Assembly: GCF_021919345.1 (NCBI RefSeq)
Contig: NZ_CP089293.1
Coordinates: forward strand, 4,154,001-4,218,000
Direction: 5' to 3'
Source of the DNA: Paenarthrobacter nicotinovorans
Lineage (GTDB): Bacteria > Actinomycetota > Actinomycetes > Actinomycetales > Micrococcaceae
DNA: 64,000 nt
Positions within the stretch are counted from its first letter, which is position 1; each line of letters starts with the position of its first letter. Positions 32,512 through 37,426 of this stretch are shown here, piece by piece. Both the position numbers and the translations under genes were made by a program. The notes under the pieces were generated by a model. The model ran no database searches. It saw only the letters and a program-made list of their open reading frames with translations, and was not told the origin of the DNA.

Positions 32512-33546
32512 ATGCCCACCCCAGACCGTCCGCTGCGCAAGCTTGGATTCCTCACCATCGGCCTGTTCGATCCCGCGGATCCGGCTGCGGGGCACCGCTC
32601 CACCCTGGAGATCATCGAACTCGGCGAGCGCTTGGGATTCGACAGTGCCTGGTTGCGCCACCGGCACCTGCAGTACGGAATTTCGTCGCCGGTTGCGGTG
32701 ATGGCAGCGGCCAGCCAACGGACCTCGAAGATCGAGCTGGGCACCGCGGTGACCCCGCTGGGTTGGGAGAATCCGCTTCGCCTGGCCGAGGACCTGGCCA
32801 CAGTGGACCTACTCAGCGGAGGCCGCATCAATCCGGGGGTCAGCGTCGGCGTACCGATGCACTACGACACCGTCAAGCACGAGCTCTACCCTGATTCCGC
32901 GGACACCGAAGATTTCAGCTACGCCCGTGTGGACCGTTTTGCCCGGCTGGTCGCCGGCGGGAAGGTGCGGGAGTTTTCCGGCAAGCAGGGCGTGGTGGAG
33001 GAGTTCTCAAACCGCGTGGAACCCCATTCCGCCGGGCTGCGTGAACGGATCTGGTATGGAGCAGCGAGCCTGAAGTCGGCAACGTGGGCCGGGGAGAACG
33101 GCTTCAACCTGCTTACCAGCAGCGTGGTGTTCCCGGGCCAGGATGAAGAGCCGGATTTTGCTGCAGTACAGCAACGGCAGATCCGCGCTTTCCGTGGCGC
33201 GGCTGAAGCAGGCGGCAGCAGCACCGCCCGCGTCTCGCAAGGACTGGTGGTGATCCCCACGGATTCCGCTTCCAGTGCCCAGCGGGAGAAGTACCAGCGC
33301 TATGTCGATGAGCGGACTCCGCGCACCAGCGCGCCCCAAGGCCCGCAGCGCATGATGTTCGCGCGGGACCTCATCGGCAGCAGCGATCAGATTGCCGAAC
33401 AGTTGTACGCGCACCAGGGCTTCCAGGAAGTGGACGAGGTAGCGTTCGCGTTGCCGTTCAGCTTTGAGCACGAGGACTACGTGCAGATCCTCACCGATAT
33501 CGCGGGCACGTTGGGGCCGGCGCTGGGGTGGGCGCCGACGGAATAG
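32512..33546 (+). CDS. Luciferase-like (LLM class) flavin-dependent oxidoreductase
   Basis: A 344-residue flavin-dependent monooxygenase family protein. It shows LTIGLFDPADPAAGHRSTLE, LGERLGFDSAWLRHRHLQYG, TAVTPLGWENPLRLAEDLA and VDLLSGGRINPGVSVGVP, all typical of the bacterial luciferase-like fold. AGAAGGAAGCC precedes the ATG at 32512. It ends 2 bases before a convergent small gene. The substrate is not predictable; reduced FMN would come from a separate reductase. Confidence 0.87.
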   Translation: MPTPDRPLRKLGFLTIGLFDPADPAAGHRSTLEIIELGERLGFDSAWLRHRHLQYGISSPVAVMAAASQRTSKIELGTAVTPLGWENPLRLAEDLATVDLLSGGRINPGVSVGVPMHYDTVKHELYPDSADTEDFSYARVDRFARLVAGGKVREFSGKQGVVEEFSNRVEPHSAGLRERIWYGAASLKSATWAGENGFNLLTSSVVFPGQDEEPDFAAVQQRQIRAFRGAAEAGGSSTARVSQGLVVIPTDSASSAQREKYQRYVDERTPRTSAPQGPQRMMFARDLIGSSDQIAEQLYAHQGFQEVDEVAFALPFSFEHEDYVQILTDIAGTLGPALGWAPTE

Positions 33547-33548
33547 CC

Positions 33549-33749
33549 TCAGTCCACGAATTCGGACTGGGTCTCGATGAAGTCCCAGTCGGCCGTGGTC
33601 AGCACACCGCTGACTTTGTCCGGATGGGGACCGCCGGCCTCGGCGATATGTTGCAGGACCTGCAGGGGGAGTTCTTCCACGCGCAGGTTCTCGCGCAGCC
33701 ATTCCTTGCTGTCCATGTGCAGATCAAGCCACCACATGTAGATTTCCAC
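33549..33749 (-). CDS. Small protein next to the CHAT gene, possible module partner
   Basis: A 66-residue acidic protein from the GTG at 33749 (GGAAGGTGG lies at good spacing), or 62 residues from the ATG at 33737. It is rich in Trp and Leu (MWWLDLHMDSKEWLREN, LPLQVLQHIAEAGG) and ends DWDFIETQSEFVD, the look of a compact folded helical domain. The much longer open frame on this strand is the shadow of the CHAT gene and is rejected. It is divergent from the CHAT gene with 123 bases between. No family is recognised with confidence. Confidence 0.6.
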   Translation of the reverse strand: MEIYMWWLDLHMDSKEWLRENLRVEELPLQVLQHIAEAGGPHPDKVSGVLTTADWDFIETQSEFVD

Positions 33750-33872
33750 CGCGGGACCACCTTCCGTCGGTTTAACGGTAGGCCTGGTCGGTTGCCGCTT
33801 CAAGGCCTGAAACCCCTTGCGGGGTGGCCGTCGTAGGGCCAATCTGTACGTAGGAACCACAAGGGACCCGCG

Positions 33873-36320
33873 ATGGACTGTGACATCGAGCTGGAAATCG
33901 ACGCTGGCTCTGCACGCGGTGAATATACGGTGCACGTGGTCCGTGCGCCGGCGGGAGGGCATGCGTCCGGAGCCTTCACCTTGGACGTAGATGGCATCCA
34001 GGACCGGCTTCCGCAGCTTGAGGCCACCGTCCTGGCTTCCGCGGTCGCCGCCCGGCGGACGTTGCCTATCGCCGAGGTTGCGGTTCGGGAAGTGGGGCAG
34101 GAACTCTTTCAAGCACTCTTTACCCGTGAGGTGTACGGCACTTACAGGGCAAGCCTTGGGGCAACACAGCATTCGGGCCAGCAACTTCGCGTGGTGCTTC
34201 GGCTCGCGGCTCCGGAGTTGGCCATGATGCCGTGGGAGACCCTCTTCGACCCCGGGACTGAGACCTACCTTTGCCAGACAGAGCCGCTCATCCGGCACAT
34301 CCCGGCCCCCGATTACAACCAGAACCCGCTGGACGTCGCACCTCCGCTGAGGATTCTGGGCATCGTCGCATCGCCGCGCGACCTGCCTGCCCTTGACGTC
34401 GAGACCGAGAAGGACCACTTGGGCCGGGCTTTGGCCGGCCCCATGAGCGAGGGCCGCGTGGAACTGGTGTGGTCCAAAACCGGGACCTGGGATGACGTCC
34501 AGTCGATGCTCCTCGCCGGCCCATGGCATGTGGTTCATTTTGTCGGGCATGGCGACTACGACCCCCGCACGGACGAGGGCCGGATCGCCCTGGTGGGCCA
34601 GGACGGGCGTGCAGCCATGGTCCGCGCCGTCCGCTTGATGGCCCTGCTCAGCGTGGCCTCCCCCAGGCCACGGCTGGTGGTGCTCAATTCGTGTTCTTCC
34701 GGTGAGATGGGCCAGACCGACCTCTTCTCCGGGACGGCTGCCGCGCTGGTCAGGAGCGGAATAGGCGCTGTGGCGGCCATGCAGTTCGCCATCAGCGACG
34801 CCGCCGCGATCGCCTTCGCCCACGGCTTCTACGCCGCAATCGCCAACGGCCGCACGGTGGACGAAGCCGCCCGCGTTGGCCGCATCTCGGTCATGGCCAG
34901 CCCCGACGGCACGTTGGAATGGGTCACGCCGGCCCTCTACGTCCGGGGCGGCTCCACGCAGCTCTTCACGCTGACGGGGCCGCCGCGCGCACCGGCTTAC
35001 AGTGAAAGCACGACGGCGGCCGCCGCGTCGGGCGGTCAGGCTGCGGTGCCGCCCCCTGCTGTTGCGAACACCGAACAAGCCCACACCGATCAGGCGATGA
35101 AGCGGGCCCAGCTGAGGGCGTTGTACGTGCAGGCAACCGCGGAATTGCGTGCCCGGCGATTCGAGCAGGCCGTCGAGTTGTTTGAGGACCTACTCACTCT
35201 GGAACCCGGTTATAGGGACGCTGCAACGCAAAGGGATGCGGCCCGCAGACGGCTGGAGCTGGCACGTATCTACCGCGAGGCGCTCCAGGCGGAGGAATCC
35301 GGCGATTGGTTGGCCGCTGCGGACGGCTTCGCCTTGGTCCTGGACGACCCCGAGTATCCCCAGGCCGCAGCGCGCAAACAGGACTGCGAGCGAAAGCAAC
35401 GCGTCTCCGACCTAGAGGGGGAACTGCGGTACCACTCCTCCCAGGGCTCCTGGCAGGCAGTGCTCGACGTTTCCAGTGAATTGGCTTCAGTGGACCCCTC
35501 GGCGGCGGATCCCGGCGGGCTCGCCACGGCAGCGCGTGCCGAAATCGAGAAGGCCAAGCCAAAGCAAACCCCTTCCGCGGAGGAGTCCCAAACTGATATG
35601 GCCGGCACCCGGGGTTCGTACACCACCGTGTATCAGCCCCCGCCCCAACCGCGCGCTGCGCCGCTGACCGGTGTGCCGGCGTCGAATATTGCAGCTGCCC
35701 AAGCCGGGCAAAGCCCGGTGGCATCACAGCCGGGCGCGTCCGCGCCATTGAATGCGGTTCCCCTTGCCTGGGGCGGTGCCGTCCTGGCGGTGGCCGGCGG
35801 GCTTGGGGTGTGCTTTGCCGTCTACTTCCTGTGGTTCGATGACAACTATTGGTACGAGAGCGGCGGCGACGCATCCCTGAGGATCCTCTACGGTTTGGTG
35901 GCTCCCCTGGGATACCTGCTGCTGGCCGTCGCCGGCCTTCCGGATCGGACCATCATCGGACGCCTGGTGATGGCCGGAGTTGTTGTCTCAGGTGCGGTCT
36001 TTGGACTTTCGGGACTGAATTACAGCGTGGAACTGACAGCTGTGGTGTTCAGCTTTGTGCATGCAGGTTTTGGGTTGTGCGCGGGCATCCTGGCCATGCG
36101 TTCCAGTCAATCCAGGCTTATGGGCTGGCTGCTGCTCTGGCCCACACTGTCCGTGCCGCTGGTCTGGGTCCAGGACAAGGGAGTGTTCCTTGAGTCCTGG
36201 TACCGGACACACGCCTACTTTGCCTTGATACAGCTTTTTGTGGTTTGCGCGGCCGGTATGGCTTTCCTGGCGGCCTCCCGCCGCCTGCGTGCGCGGTCAA
36301 CGGAAAGGACTGAAAAATGA
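33873..36320 (+). CDS. CHAT-domain protease with TPR region and C-terminal membrane domain
   Basis: An 815-residue protein. The CHAT (caspase-like) domain spans about residues 75-360, with the catalytic pair His226 in VHFVGHGDYD and Cys274 in LNSCSSGEMG. Residues 410-560 are helical and TPR-like (RFEQAVELFEDLLTLEPGYRD and a repeat of this pattern). A Pro/Ala/Gln-rich linker follows. From about residue 640 there are some six membrane helices (GGAVLAVAGGLGVCFAVYFL onward), anchoring the protease to the membrane. The gene overlaps a Trypco1-type gene by four bases. Proteases of this class act in bacterial conflict, stress or cell-death systems; the target here is unknown. Confidence 0.87.
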   Translation: MDCDIELEIDAGSARGEYTVHVVRAPAGGHASGAFTLDVDGIQDRLPQLEATVLASAVAARRTLPIAEVAVREVGQELFQALFTREVYGTYRASLGATQHSGQQLRVVLRLAAPELAMMPWETLFDPGTETYLCQTEPLIRHIPAPDYNQNPLDVAPPLRILGIVASPRDLPALDVETEKDHLGRALAGPMSEGRVELVWSKTGTWDDVQSMLLAGPWHVVHFVGHGDYDPRTDEGRIALVGQDGRAAMVRAVRLMALLSVASPRPRLVVLNSCSSGEMGQTDLFSGTAAALVRSGIGAVAAMQFAISDAAAIAFAHGFYAAIANGRTVDEAARVGRISVMASPDGTLEWVTPALYVRGGSTQLFTLTGPPRAPAYSESTTAAAASGGQAAVPPPAVANTEQAHTDQAMKRAQLRALYVQATAELRARRFEQAVELFEDLLTLEPGYRDAATQRDAARRRLELARIYREALQAEESGDWLAAADGFALVLDDPEYPQAAARKQDCERKQRVSDLEGELRYHSSQGSWQAVLDVSSELASVDPSAADPGGLATAARAEIEKAKPKQTPSAEESQTDMAGTRGSYTTVYQPPPQPRAAPLTGVPASNIAAAQAGQSPVASQPGASAPLNAVPLAWGGAVLAVAGGLGVCFAVYFLWFDDNYWYESGGDASLRILYGLVAPLGYLLLAVAGLPDRTIIGRLVMAGVVVSGAVFGLSGLNYSVELTAVVFSFVHAGFGLCAGILAMRSSQSRLMGWLLLWPTLSVPLVWVQDKGVFLESWYRTHAYFALIQLFVVCAAGMAFLAASRRLRARSTERTEK

Positions 36321-36676
36321 CGCACCTGGTGGAGTTCGCAACGGATGACGGCGGCACGGTGATCGTGGAGGTGGCGAGCACTGCCGGCAGCCTGGTGACA
36401 CGGGGTGGTGAGCACACGGCCGATCACTCGGGGGTCTTCGCGCGTGCCCAGCAGACGTTCCAACGGGCCCTCGAGCATGTCCGTCCCGCGGTCCAAGGCG
36501 TCATTGACGAGTTGCTCAGCCTCGAAAACCGCCCCGACGAGCTGAGTGTGGAGTTCGGGATAGACCTTCATGCGGAGGCGGGCGCCTTTATCGCATCGGC
36601 CAGCACGGCATCCAACTTCAAGGTGCGGCTGACGTGGAACAAGCCTGTTCAACAGCACGGCGCGGCGCAACAATAA
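36317..36676 (+). CDS. CU044_2847/Trypco1-domain protein
   Basis: A 119-residue soluble protein matching the trypsin-co-occurring domain 1 pattern: MTHLVEFATDDGGTVIVEV, FQRALEHVRPAVQGVIDELL, PDELSVEFGIDLHAEAGAFI and ASNFKVRLTW. This domain is known from its association with trypsin-like and CHAT proteases in bacterial conflict systems. Its ATG overlaps the CHAT stop (ATGA), so the two are translationally coupled. It is probably an adaptor, substrate or regulator of the protease. Confidence 0.82.
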   Translation: MTHLVEFATDDGGTVIVEVASTAGSLVTRGGEHTADHSGVFARAQQTFQRALEHVRPAVQGVIDELLSLENRPDELSVEFGIDLHAEAGAFIASASTASNFKVRLTWNKPVQQHGAAQQ

Positions 36677-36680
36677 GGGT

Positions 36681-37187
36681 ATGGCTGAGGAAAATTTCAG
36701 CGGGCCCATTCCCCTCGTGGTGGGCGTCCTTCCCGACCAGCACGTGGAGGTGCTGCAAACGGCCCGGACCCTGGCCGAGCAGCTCGGCGTGCCGCTGGTG
36801 TGCGCCTACGTGGACGAGGCCAGCTACCTCGTGGAGTGGGATCCCTCCCGCGAAACCCACAGGATGTCGCTGCACCCGGAAAAAGACGACGCCGAGGTGG
36901 ACGCGGTCCGGGGGGATCTCGGCAAGATGATCGGGGAAGCCATGGACGGCGGCAGCGCCGACTGGACCCTGCGGCTGCTGGCCGGCGATCCCGCCCGGGC
37001 CCTGGGGCGGCTGGCGGCGGACATCAACGCGTCCATGATCATTGTGGGCTCGCCGGAACCTGGTTTGGGGCACCGGATTTCCGAGGCCCTCAACGGTTCC
37101 GTGGCTGCCTGGCTCAGCCATCACCAGCGCCGGCCGGTGCTGATTGTGCCCCAGAAAAAGCGCCATGACGGGGACCGGAGAAACTAA
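36681..37187 (+). CDS. Universal stress protein (UspA family)
   Basis: A 168-residue single Usp domain: IPLVVGVLPDQHVEVLQTAR at the start, ADINASMIIVGSPEPGLGHR, and SVAAWLSHHQRRPVLIVP at the end. The ATP-binding glycine motif (GSPxxGxxxR...GS) is roughly preserved. It starts 4 bases after the Trypco1 stop, making it the third gene of the CHAT transcript, or a gene read through from it. Its link to the module could be functional or only positional. Confidence 0.87.
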   Translation: MAEENFSGPIPLVVGVLPDQHVEVLQTARTLAEQLGVPLVCAYVDEASYLVEWDPSRETHRMSLHPEKDDAEVDAVRGDLGKMIGEAMDGGSADWTLRLLAGDPARALGRLAADINASMIIVGSPEPGLGHRISEALNGSVAAWLSHHQRRPVLIVPQKKRHDGDRRN

Positions 37188-37240
37188 AGCGAAAGTACTT
37201 ATTCGAGGTGGTGGCATTGGCGTCCCATGGCACGTAGAGT

Positions 37241-37322
37241 GATGAGTGCAGGAAGCGAAAGCGCCTGCTCAAAGACCGCTCCGGAGTGCGTATCCCCCAA
37301 TAACGCACTCCGGAGCTCTTTG
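37241..37322 (+). ncRNA. Candidate small RNA with two hairpins and a C-run loop
   Basis: The 306-base gap between the universal stress gene and the permease has no gene. It does hold a possible transcript: GAGTGCAGG pairs with CCTGCTC around a GCGAAAGC core, followed by a perfect 13-base stem (GCTCCGGAGTGCG at 37278, complement at 37304). The stem loop contains CCCCC, and TCTTTGCTTT follows. A TAGAGT box lies at 37235-37240. The order (structured 5' hairpin, then terminator hairpin with a C-rich loop) is reminiscent of actinobacterial 6C-type RNAs but does not match that consensus fully. It could also simply be the terminator of the upstream operon. Confidence 0.4.
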
Positions 37323-37386
37323 CTTTAACGGCAGCGCGATGCGGCCGCAGCCGCGCCCGATGCGGCCACTACATGCTTAAAGCACA

Positions 37387-37426
37387 ACGGCCCCGGCATG
37401 CCTTTTGACAGGCATGCCGGGGCCGT
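37387..37426. terminator. Strong hairpin, terminator of the permease operon
   Basis: ACGGCCCCGGCATGCC and GGCATGCCGGGGCCGT are perfect 16-base complements with an 8-base loop. It lies 69 bases downstream of the gntP-like stop on the minus strand. A T-rich tract follows on that side. Confidence 0.8.

Follow-up and report, generated by a model that had tools for sequence, protein, structure and literature searches.

We suggest that the membrane-anchored CHAT protease and the adjoining Trypco1 protein of Paenarthrobacter nicotinovorans form one two-gene unit, as judged from sequence, within the window (the whole 64,000-nucleotide stretch of DNA analysed). The best explanation, to which we assign a probability of roughly 0.6, is a two-gene operon in which a cytosolic CHAT protease on a six-helix membrane bundle works with Trypco1 by the mechanism proposed below. 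The original prediction had described a conflict system of four genes, with a universal stress protein (Usp) and a small divergent protein as further members. All four genes proved real and lie where it had placed them (Table 1), the Trypco1 ATG overlaps the CHAT stop and usp begins 4 bases past the Trypco1 stop. What stands is the linkage between Trypco1 and a CHAT protease that is anchored in the membrane and has its dyad intact; the membership of Usp and the small protein is not supported.

Table 1. Features of the CHAT-Trypco1 locus and its flanks (window positions)
Feature	Position	Strand	Remarks
CHAT protease	33873-36320	+	815 aa; PF12770 E 2.6e-27, residues 73-344
CHAT domain, residues 73-344	34089..34904	+	His226 34548-34550, Cys274 34692-34694
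Helical TPR-like region, residues 399-561	35067..35555	+	model pLDDT >90 over most; sub-threshold TPR matches
Linker, residues 562-627	35556..35753	+	mostly low-confidence model; fast evolving, indel rich
Six transmembrane helices, residues 628-814	35754..36314	+	predicted; N-in/C-in suggested by charge
Trypco1 protein, 119 aa	36317-36676	+	PF19493 E 2.8e-27; start overlaps CHAT stop
Universal stress protein (usp)	36681-37187	+	PF00582 E 2.1e-12; flanking gene, outside module
66-aa conserved protein (small gene)	33549-33749	-	flanking gene, outside module
Block upstream of CHAT	33835..33854	+	candidate own promoter; similar in most listed occupied sites, uncounted
Conserved usp boxes CTGTTC-N19-ACAAT	36645..36674	+	overlap trypco1 3' end; 41/41 upstream regions
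Stretch missing from the L017 empty site	33806..36641	+	flank alignments 235/254 and 480/543 identical

Both proteins belong to their Pfam families (CHAT, 96.4 bits against PF12770, cut-off 24; Trypco1, 95.6 bits against PF19493, cut-off 24.6). Close matches, defined as E 1e-190 or better for CHAT and E 3.2e-40 or better for Trypco1, coincide: of 198 genomes from the genus, the same 31 carry both. Among the remaining 167 genomes the best hits are two remnants (G145, G160), beyond which no CHAT match is better than 6.7e-14 and no Trypco1 match better than 9.8e-12. A second CHAT, 62% identical, occurs in three of the 31 genomes (G207, G084, G135), with no Trypco1 within the 9.5-10 kb fetched around it. 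The pair is present at this site in some soil bacteria and absent from close relatives, of which L017 is the nearest fetched, and the empty sites are nested among occupied ones. The pair seems to be an old resident of the site that has been lost more than once. No relative was confirmed in the viral contigs, and the phage database gave one record (35% over 45% of the query). The plasmid search gave nine, of which eight stay below 60% and the other, a record of 1.35 Mb, reaches 72%.

The pairing extends to the wider CHAT family. A Trypco1 frame was detected at 43 of 79 related CHAT loci, each at most 1.4 kb from CHAT (on the same strand in 39 cases, 33 of them downstream and 6 upstream, and on the opposite strand in 4), and the paired loci fall in 14 of 27 labelled groups; these varied positions and this spread suggest that the pairing outlives gene order. 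No Trypco1 frame was detected at the other 36 loci with an HMM built from close members, where some contigs end early. At one of the loci where none was found, L154 of Williamsia, the neighbours of a multi-transmembrane CHAT include a gene for a C14 caspase (E 9.8e-5) and one with a weak match to alpha/beta-hydrolases (E 0.004, below the cut-off); we liken the caspase neighbour to the alternative peptidase pairing described for VMAP systems in the text of PMC7159879.

An order-wide sample of 198 genomes yielded 16 Trypco1 loci, five of them near a CHAT gene of this family (two of the five are from the genus, counting the window's own), one beside a Trypsin_2-CHAT fusion and four beside Trypsin_2. 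A scan for the GDSGG trypsin motif missed Trypsin_2 proteins that Pfam detected and was not used as evidence of absence. Another 17 Trypco1 loci from the genus had no clear peptidase among their scanned neighbours, where Peptidase_S9/S15 matches occurred in hydrolase parts but stayed below the cut-off; eight adjoin PRTase-DLH genes, three tandem Usp genes, one a HAD gene and five aminotransferase and/or thioredoxin genes. Trypco1 alone thus does not mark conflict.

The CHAT protein has the His/Cys dyad and caspase-like fold of its family, and the dyad at His226 and Cys274 is intact as predicted. Of 79 related frames, 77 retain the His, one has Tyr there and a short one has a gap; the Cys is retained in 78, the sole exception being the same gap. 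These counts come from a replacement analysis made after a catalytic-motif pattern had given false misses (NSCQ, NSCE and others). The TPR region claimed originally holds in part: its TPR Pfam matches fall below the cut-off, while residues 399-561 are modelled confidently as all-helical and repeat-like. The membrane anchor is borne out as a predicted six-helix bundle, which the model separates from the TPR-like part by a disordered linker. Trypco1 itself was modelled poorly, at pLDDT 61.

Median dN/dS is 0.046 for CHAT and 0.063 for Trypco1, compared with 0.24 for the transmembrane part and 0.39 for the linker, which has a mean identity of 39% and a gap fraction of 0.30. The C-terminal modules differ among related CHAT proteins, several of which carry beta-propeller repeats. 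A search of 197 genomes of the family for just the transmembrane module gave three matches (the window's own, G176 and G122), all of them in CHAT carriers, the frames being 827-900 residues long.

The small gene and usp appear to be separate neighbours of the module. The small gene is real, since 16 aligned members share 26 invariant columns and its median dN/dS is 0.054 among 10 genomes. One source names it DUF2795; an identity as DUF2795 or DUF6794 was rejected, the 16 members having given single weak Pfam matches. It occurs in 190 of the 198 genus genomes, compared with 31 for close CHAT. In favour of the original reading, in which Usp would be a signalling partner and the 66-residue protein would serve as either substrate or inhibitor, are the small gene adjoining CHAT in 30 of 31 cassette genomes, the counts at 18 loci inspected for the full set of four (usp in 16, small gene in 17) and the Trypco1 paralogs beside tandem Usp genes mentioned above. 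However, the small gene directly adjoins usp, without CHAT and Trypco1, in 12 of 30 fetched sites, that is, in all 12 that lack the pair, and the pair occurs without either flanking gene in 14 kb of G004 (locus L140) and without usp at locus L138. The boxes upstream of usp are conserved in all 41 distinct filter-passing regions, whether the site is occupied or empty, although they were chosen after inspecting the same sequences and rest on conservation alone; their retention with or without the pair marks usp as a separate unit. A sigma-70 consensus scan of positions 33500-37400 found no promoter, the block upstream of CHAT included. The four-gene system was rejected because of the empty sites, the wide occurrence of the small gene and the conservation of the usp boxes; the data already speak against an obligate unit of this kind, and we consider the system highly improbable.

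In the mechanism that we propose for the two-gene operon, the CHAT protease would be cytosolic and tied to the membrane by the six-helix bundle, with Trypco1 as a small cytosolic partner. The bundle may sense membrane disturbance, such as phage entry, depolarisation or envelope stress, and Trypco1 may bind the protease or its TPR-like region and either license or restrain it. Once active, the protease would cleave cellular targets, possibly including itself in the disordered linker, leading to arrest or death, or to a protective response. A conflict function of the pair is plausible. A wider reading, which we hold tentatively, is an actinobacterial family of membrane-receptor-like proteases with a constant cytosolic CHAT and exchangeable C-terminal sensors (six-transmembrane bundle, transmembrane plus beta-propeller, WD40), where Trypco1 might be a general peptidase partner for two unrelated folds, trypsin and caspase-like CHAT.

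The pair could instead carry out housekeeping-type regulated proteolysis of an envelope, division or transcription regulator with no conflict role, on the model of HetF, which has been proposed to degrade PatU3 in Anabaena. The presence of the pair in only 31 of 198 genomes with nested empty sites, the fast evolution of the membrane part and the varying C-terminal modules all argue against such a role, which we regard as unlikely. Less probable still is that CHAT serves as an unvarying processing protease, the effector being the variable C-terminus, so that a cut in the linker would free the six-helix bundle to harm the membrane, as proposed for System 4. The modelled linker fits that arrangement, and section 33 of PMC7159879 proposes that as many as 50 C-terminal domains, each following a caspase that stays constant, are deployed by auto-proteolysis. 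On the other side, the linker evolves fast and no conserved cut site was seen, because no residue at about 562-630 is conserved in 70% of 32 members, and the beta-propeller repeats of several relatives look more like sensors. This alternative shares the two-gene unit with the sensor-protease operon that we prefer, so the odds of the two are not exclusive.

If the preferred reading is true, Trypco1 would be not a trypsin-specific accessory but a partner common to two protease folds. A module of only two genes, in a soil genus that can be cultured, would then offer a tractable route to the role of Trypco1, with the natural empty sites as matched controls for genetics.

Judged by its sequence, the module resembles a known type of self-defence or stress module of bacteria, of which it would be a variant. 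HetF of cyanobacteria shares a CHAT-related region with it at 48 bits, far below the NCBIfam equivalog cut-off of 1200, and we know of no Trypco1 partner for HetF. SAVED-CHAT and the Craspase TPR-CHAT differ in that the protein studied here has a membrane bundle and Trypco1 and no SAVED family in a Pfam scan at E 1; PADLOC on the four proteins returned only a match of the CHAT part to SAVED_CHAT, covering 143-319 of 498. The original prediction took CHAT and Trypco1 to be known partners. This is partly supported by PMC10907252 (2024), whose text mentions loci in which peptidase effectors of the trypsin- or caspase-like kind lie near a Trypco1 or Trypco2 adapter, and a single Trypco2 locus with CHAT in the target protein. 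The naming paper, PMC7159879, ties Trypco1 to trypsin, 'CHAT' occurring 0 times in its main text; since Trypco1 was named for its trypsin partners, the CHAT pairing is a variant. No description of a stand-alone CHAT-Trypco1 pair was found in the literature searched, which covered few subscription journals and no supplements. The vWA-MoxR ternary (VMAP) systems, which according to the text of PMC7159879 include a Trypco1-trypsin pairing, likewise have Trypco1 adjoining a peptidase gene, whereas here CHAT replaces trypsin: the genes adjacent to Trypco1 are CHAT and usp. A VMAP-C search gave no match either in the bacterium's own genome or in any control genome.

The closest known design is the EACC1-caspase 'System 4', as described in the text of PMC7159879. 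There the partner is EACC1, encoded by the 5' gene, whereas here it is Trypco1, encoded downstream, and the peptidase is CHAT (18.2 bits against the caspase_w_EACC1 model, cut-off 140); an EACC1 search of the own genome gave no match, nor did the control genomes. Common to both are two genes with a small constant partner, the System 4 kind being prevalent in actinobacteria, and an architecture with a caspase-like peptidase at the N-terminus and a C-terminus that varies strongly and in some cases has transmembrane helices, a trait that the CHAT family shares in its constant peptidase and changing C-terminal modules.

The best-supported unit at this locus consists of two genes, encoding a membrane-anchored CHAT protease and a Trypco1 protein, which together would act as a sensor-effector. 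The original prediction identified the CHAT, Trypco1 and Usp products correctly, as confirmed by the Pfam scan, and in the window sequence the CHAT stop overlaps the Trypco1 start and four bases separate Trypco1 from usp, the universal stress protein gene. For the four proteins of the locus, PADLOC matched only part of CHAT, to SAVED_CHAT; as the Pfam scan covered just two further window genes, both upstream neighbours, the locus could still belong to a defence island.

Features of the locus, in window positions, with Pfam matches of the products
Feature	Position	Strand	Pfam match	E value
Small divergent gene	33549-33749	-		
CHAT protease gene	33873-36320	+	PF12770	2.6e-27
Trypco1 gene	36317-36676	+	PF19493	2.8e-27
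usp upstream boxes to ATG	36645-36681			
usp	36681-37187	+	PF00582	2.1e-12

Of the 198 genus genomes sampled, 31 carry a close CHAT relative (E at most 1e-190), and the same 31 carry a close Trypco1 relative (E at most 3.2e-40), with thresholds chosen once the gap in scores was visible; any CHAT match occurs in 39 genomes and any Trypco1 match in 87. The best matches in the other 167 genomes were remnants of the pair, followed by 6.7e-14 (CHAT) and 9.8e-12 (Trypco1). Three of the 31 genomes (G207, G084, G135) have an additional second CHAT, 62% identical, and no Trypco1 was detected in the 9.5-10 kb fetched around these copies (L222, L223, L224), one of which bears WD40 repeats.

The small divergent gene is real, as predicted: its 66-residue product has 26 invariant columns among 16 aligned members, with a median dN/dS of 0.054, and the Pfam scan of the window copy and members found no family. 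CHAT is its neighbour in 30 of 31 close-CHAT genomes and at 18 of the 30 fetched small-gene loci. The proposal that all four genes form one system is not supported, the small gene being present in 190 of 198 genomes versus 31 for close CHAT, and usp directly adjoining it at the 12 other fetched loci (empty sites), where neither CHAT nor Trypco1 lies between and the intergenic stretch is 106-156 bases. Compared with L017, the closest of the empty relatives fetched, the window loses homology near 33805 and regains it near 36642, the shared right flank taking in the last trypco1 codons because the usp upstream boxes sit there. Neither small gene nor usp was found within the 14 kb fetched from G004 (L140), and locus L138 has the small gene, with usp missing. 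A 77% identical copy of the small protein is listed for Mycobacterium dioxanotrophicus (P0250).

The usp boxes, CTGTT(C/T) and, 19 bases from its end, ACAAT, followed after 5-6 bases by ATG, were found in 41/41 distinct upstream regions passing the filter: 12 come from empty sites, and 29 retain the pair wholly or in part, one of these being the G145 remnant. Of the window's 568 open frames that start with ATG, a single one is preceded by the two elements, and this must be usp. Since the boxes were picked after inspection of the sequences and do not match the sigma-70 consensus, they are a putative promoter; their spacing to the ATG suggests a leaderless message. A block upstream of CHAT, judged by eye, is alike in most occupied sites listed.

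The FastTree tree of small gene and usp has 29 tips, made up of 16 occupied sites, 12 empty sites and one remnant; L128, L138 and L140, with usp cut or missing, were left out. Its three main groups all hold occupied sites, with empty sites nested among them and L017 as sister of the window. CHAT distances track those of the flanking genes (Mantel r 0.91 over 16 genomes, with 0/2000 permutations as high). The G145 site, which retains only CHAT residues 1-77 and Trypco1 79-111, is a deletion scar; in G160, Trypco1 survives as a broken fragment, and the 3.5 kb fetched there shows no CHAT. The nested empty sites, the correlation and the two remnants therefore make the pair look like an old resident that purifying selection maintains where it occurs and that has been lost on more than one occasion. 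The pair may instead have been gained in part of the genus, since the empty-site sample is skewed toward the closest small-gene relatives.

Of 99 confirmed stretches the 80 best were retained, and among the 79 CHAT loci in named genomes taken from them, 43 have a Trypco1 frame no more than 1.4 kb from CHAT. On the CHAT strand this frame follows CHAT at 33 loci and precedes it at 6, and at 4 it lies on the other strand; the pairing occurs in 14 of 27 labelled groups. The C-termini of related CHATs vary: WD40, Kelch, LpqN-like or PF13672 (a PP2C-type domain), a single TM helix followed by PD40 or NHL-type beta-propeller repeats, a multi-TM region (L153, L154, L174), or no recognised module. The family-wide sample gave any match in 24/345 genomes, including three of other genera with CHATs 49-64% identical; in one (L055) Trypco1 lies upstream of CHAT, and in the remaining two no Trypco1 was seen within the short stretch covered. 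In the Rhodococcus aetherivorans relative L150, a Tyr aligns with the catalytic His.

Order-wide, 16 Trypco1 matches in 13/198 genomes neighbour the same CHAT family (5, including the window), Trypsin_2 (4) or a Trypsin_2-CHAT fusion (1), and incomplete neighbour scans showed no peptidase at 6. The fusion, L236:1632-3281, is a single protein adjoining the Trypco1 gene. Seventeen other Trypco1 loci of the genus, hand-chosen from weaker matches, have no clear peptidase among scanned neighbours, so that Trypco1 by itself is weak evidence for conflict. Eight (L207, L208, L209, L211, L212, L215, L216, L217) lie beside a phosphoribosyltransferase-dienelactone hydrolase fusion that resembles mycobacterial Rv0571c; the hydrolase parts of these fusions give only sub-cut-off Peptidase_S9/S15 matches. 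One adjoins HAD, and five adjoin aminotransferase and/or thioredoxin genes, two of them with RibD or deaminase genes. The remaining three (L206, L213, L214) adjoin tandem Usp genes, another Usp-Trypco1 neighbourhood.

Within the two-gene unit, Trypco1 would control the protease; we infer the sign of this control, as well as the sensor, the trigger and the protease targets. A conflict or suicide role appears somewhat favoured over housekeeping proteolysis, because of the patchy retention, the changing modules and the similarity to System 4, an EACC1-caspase design. Alternatively, a cut in the linker would free the six-helix bundle, which would harm the membrane; this shares the two-gene unit with the best-supported explanation, and the odds of the two are not exclusive.

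In PMC7159879, which defines Trypco1, Trypco1 is linked with trypsin, and caspases with alpha/beta-hydrolase; PMC10907252 describes DGR loci holding Trypco adapters together with trypsin- or caspase-like peptidases. Williamsia faeni L154:3318-8277 has a C14 caspase gene, a weak alpha/beta-hydrolase and a multi-TM CHAT in a row, with no Trypco1 found at the locus, which hints that partners are exchangeable between such designs. System 4 of PMC7159879, two genes with a membrane-associated caspase and up to 50 C-terminal domains, is the closest design to the CHAT-Trypco1 pair, from which it differs in its EACC1 partner and its caspase type.
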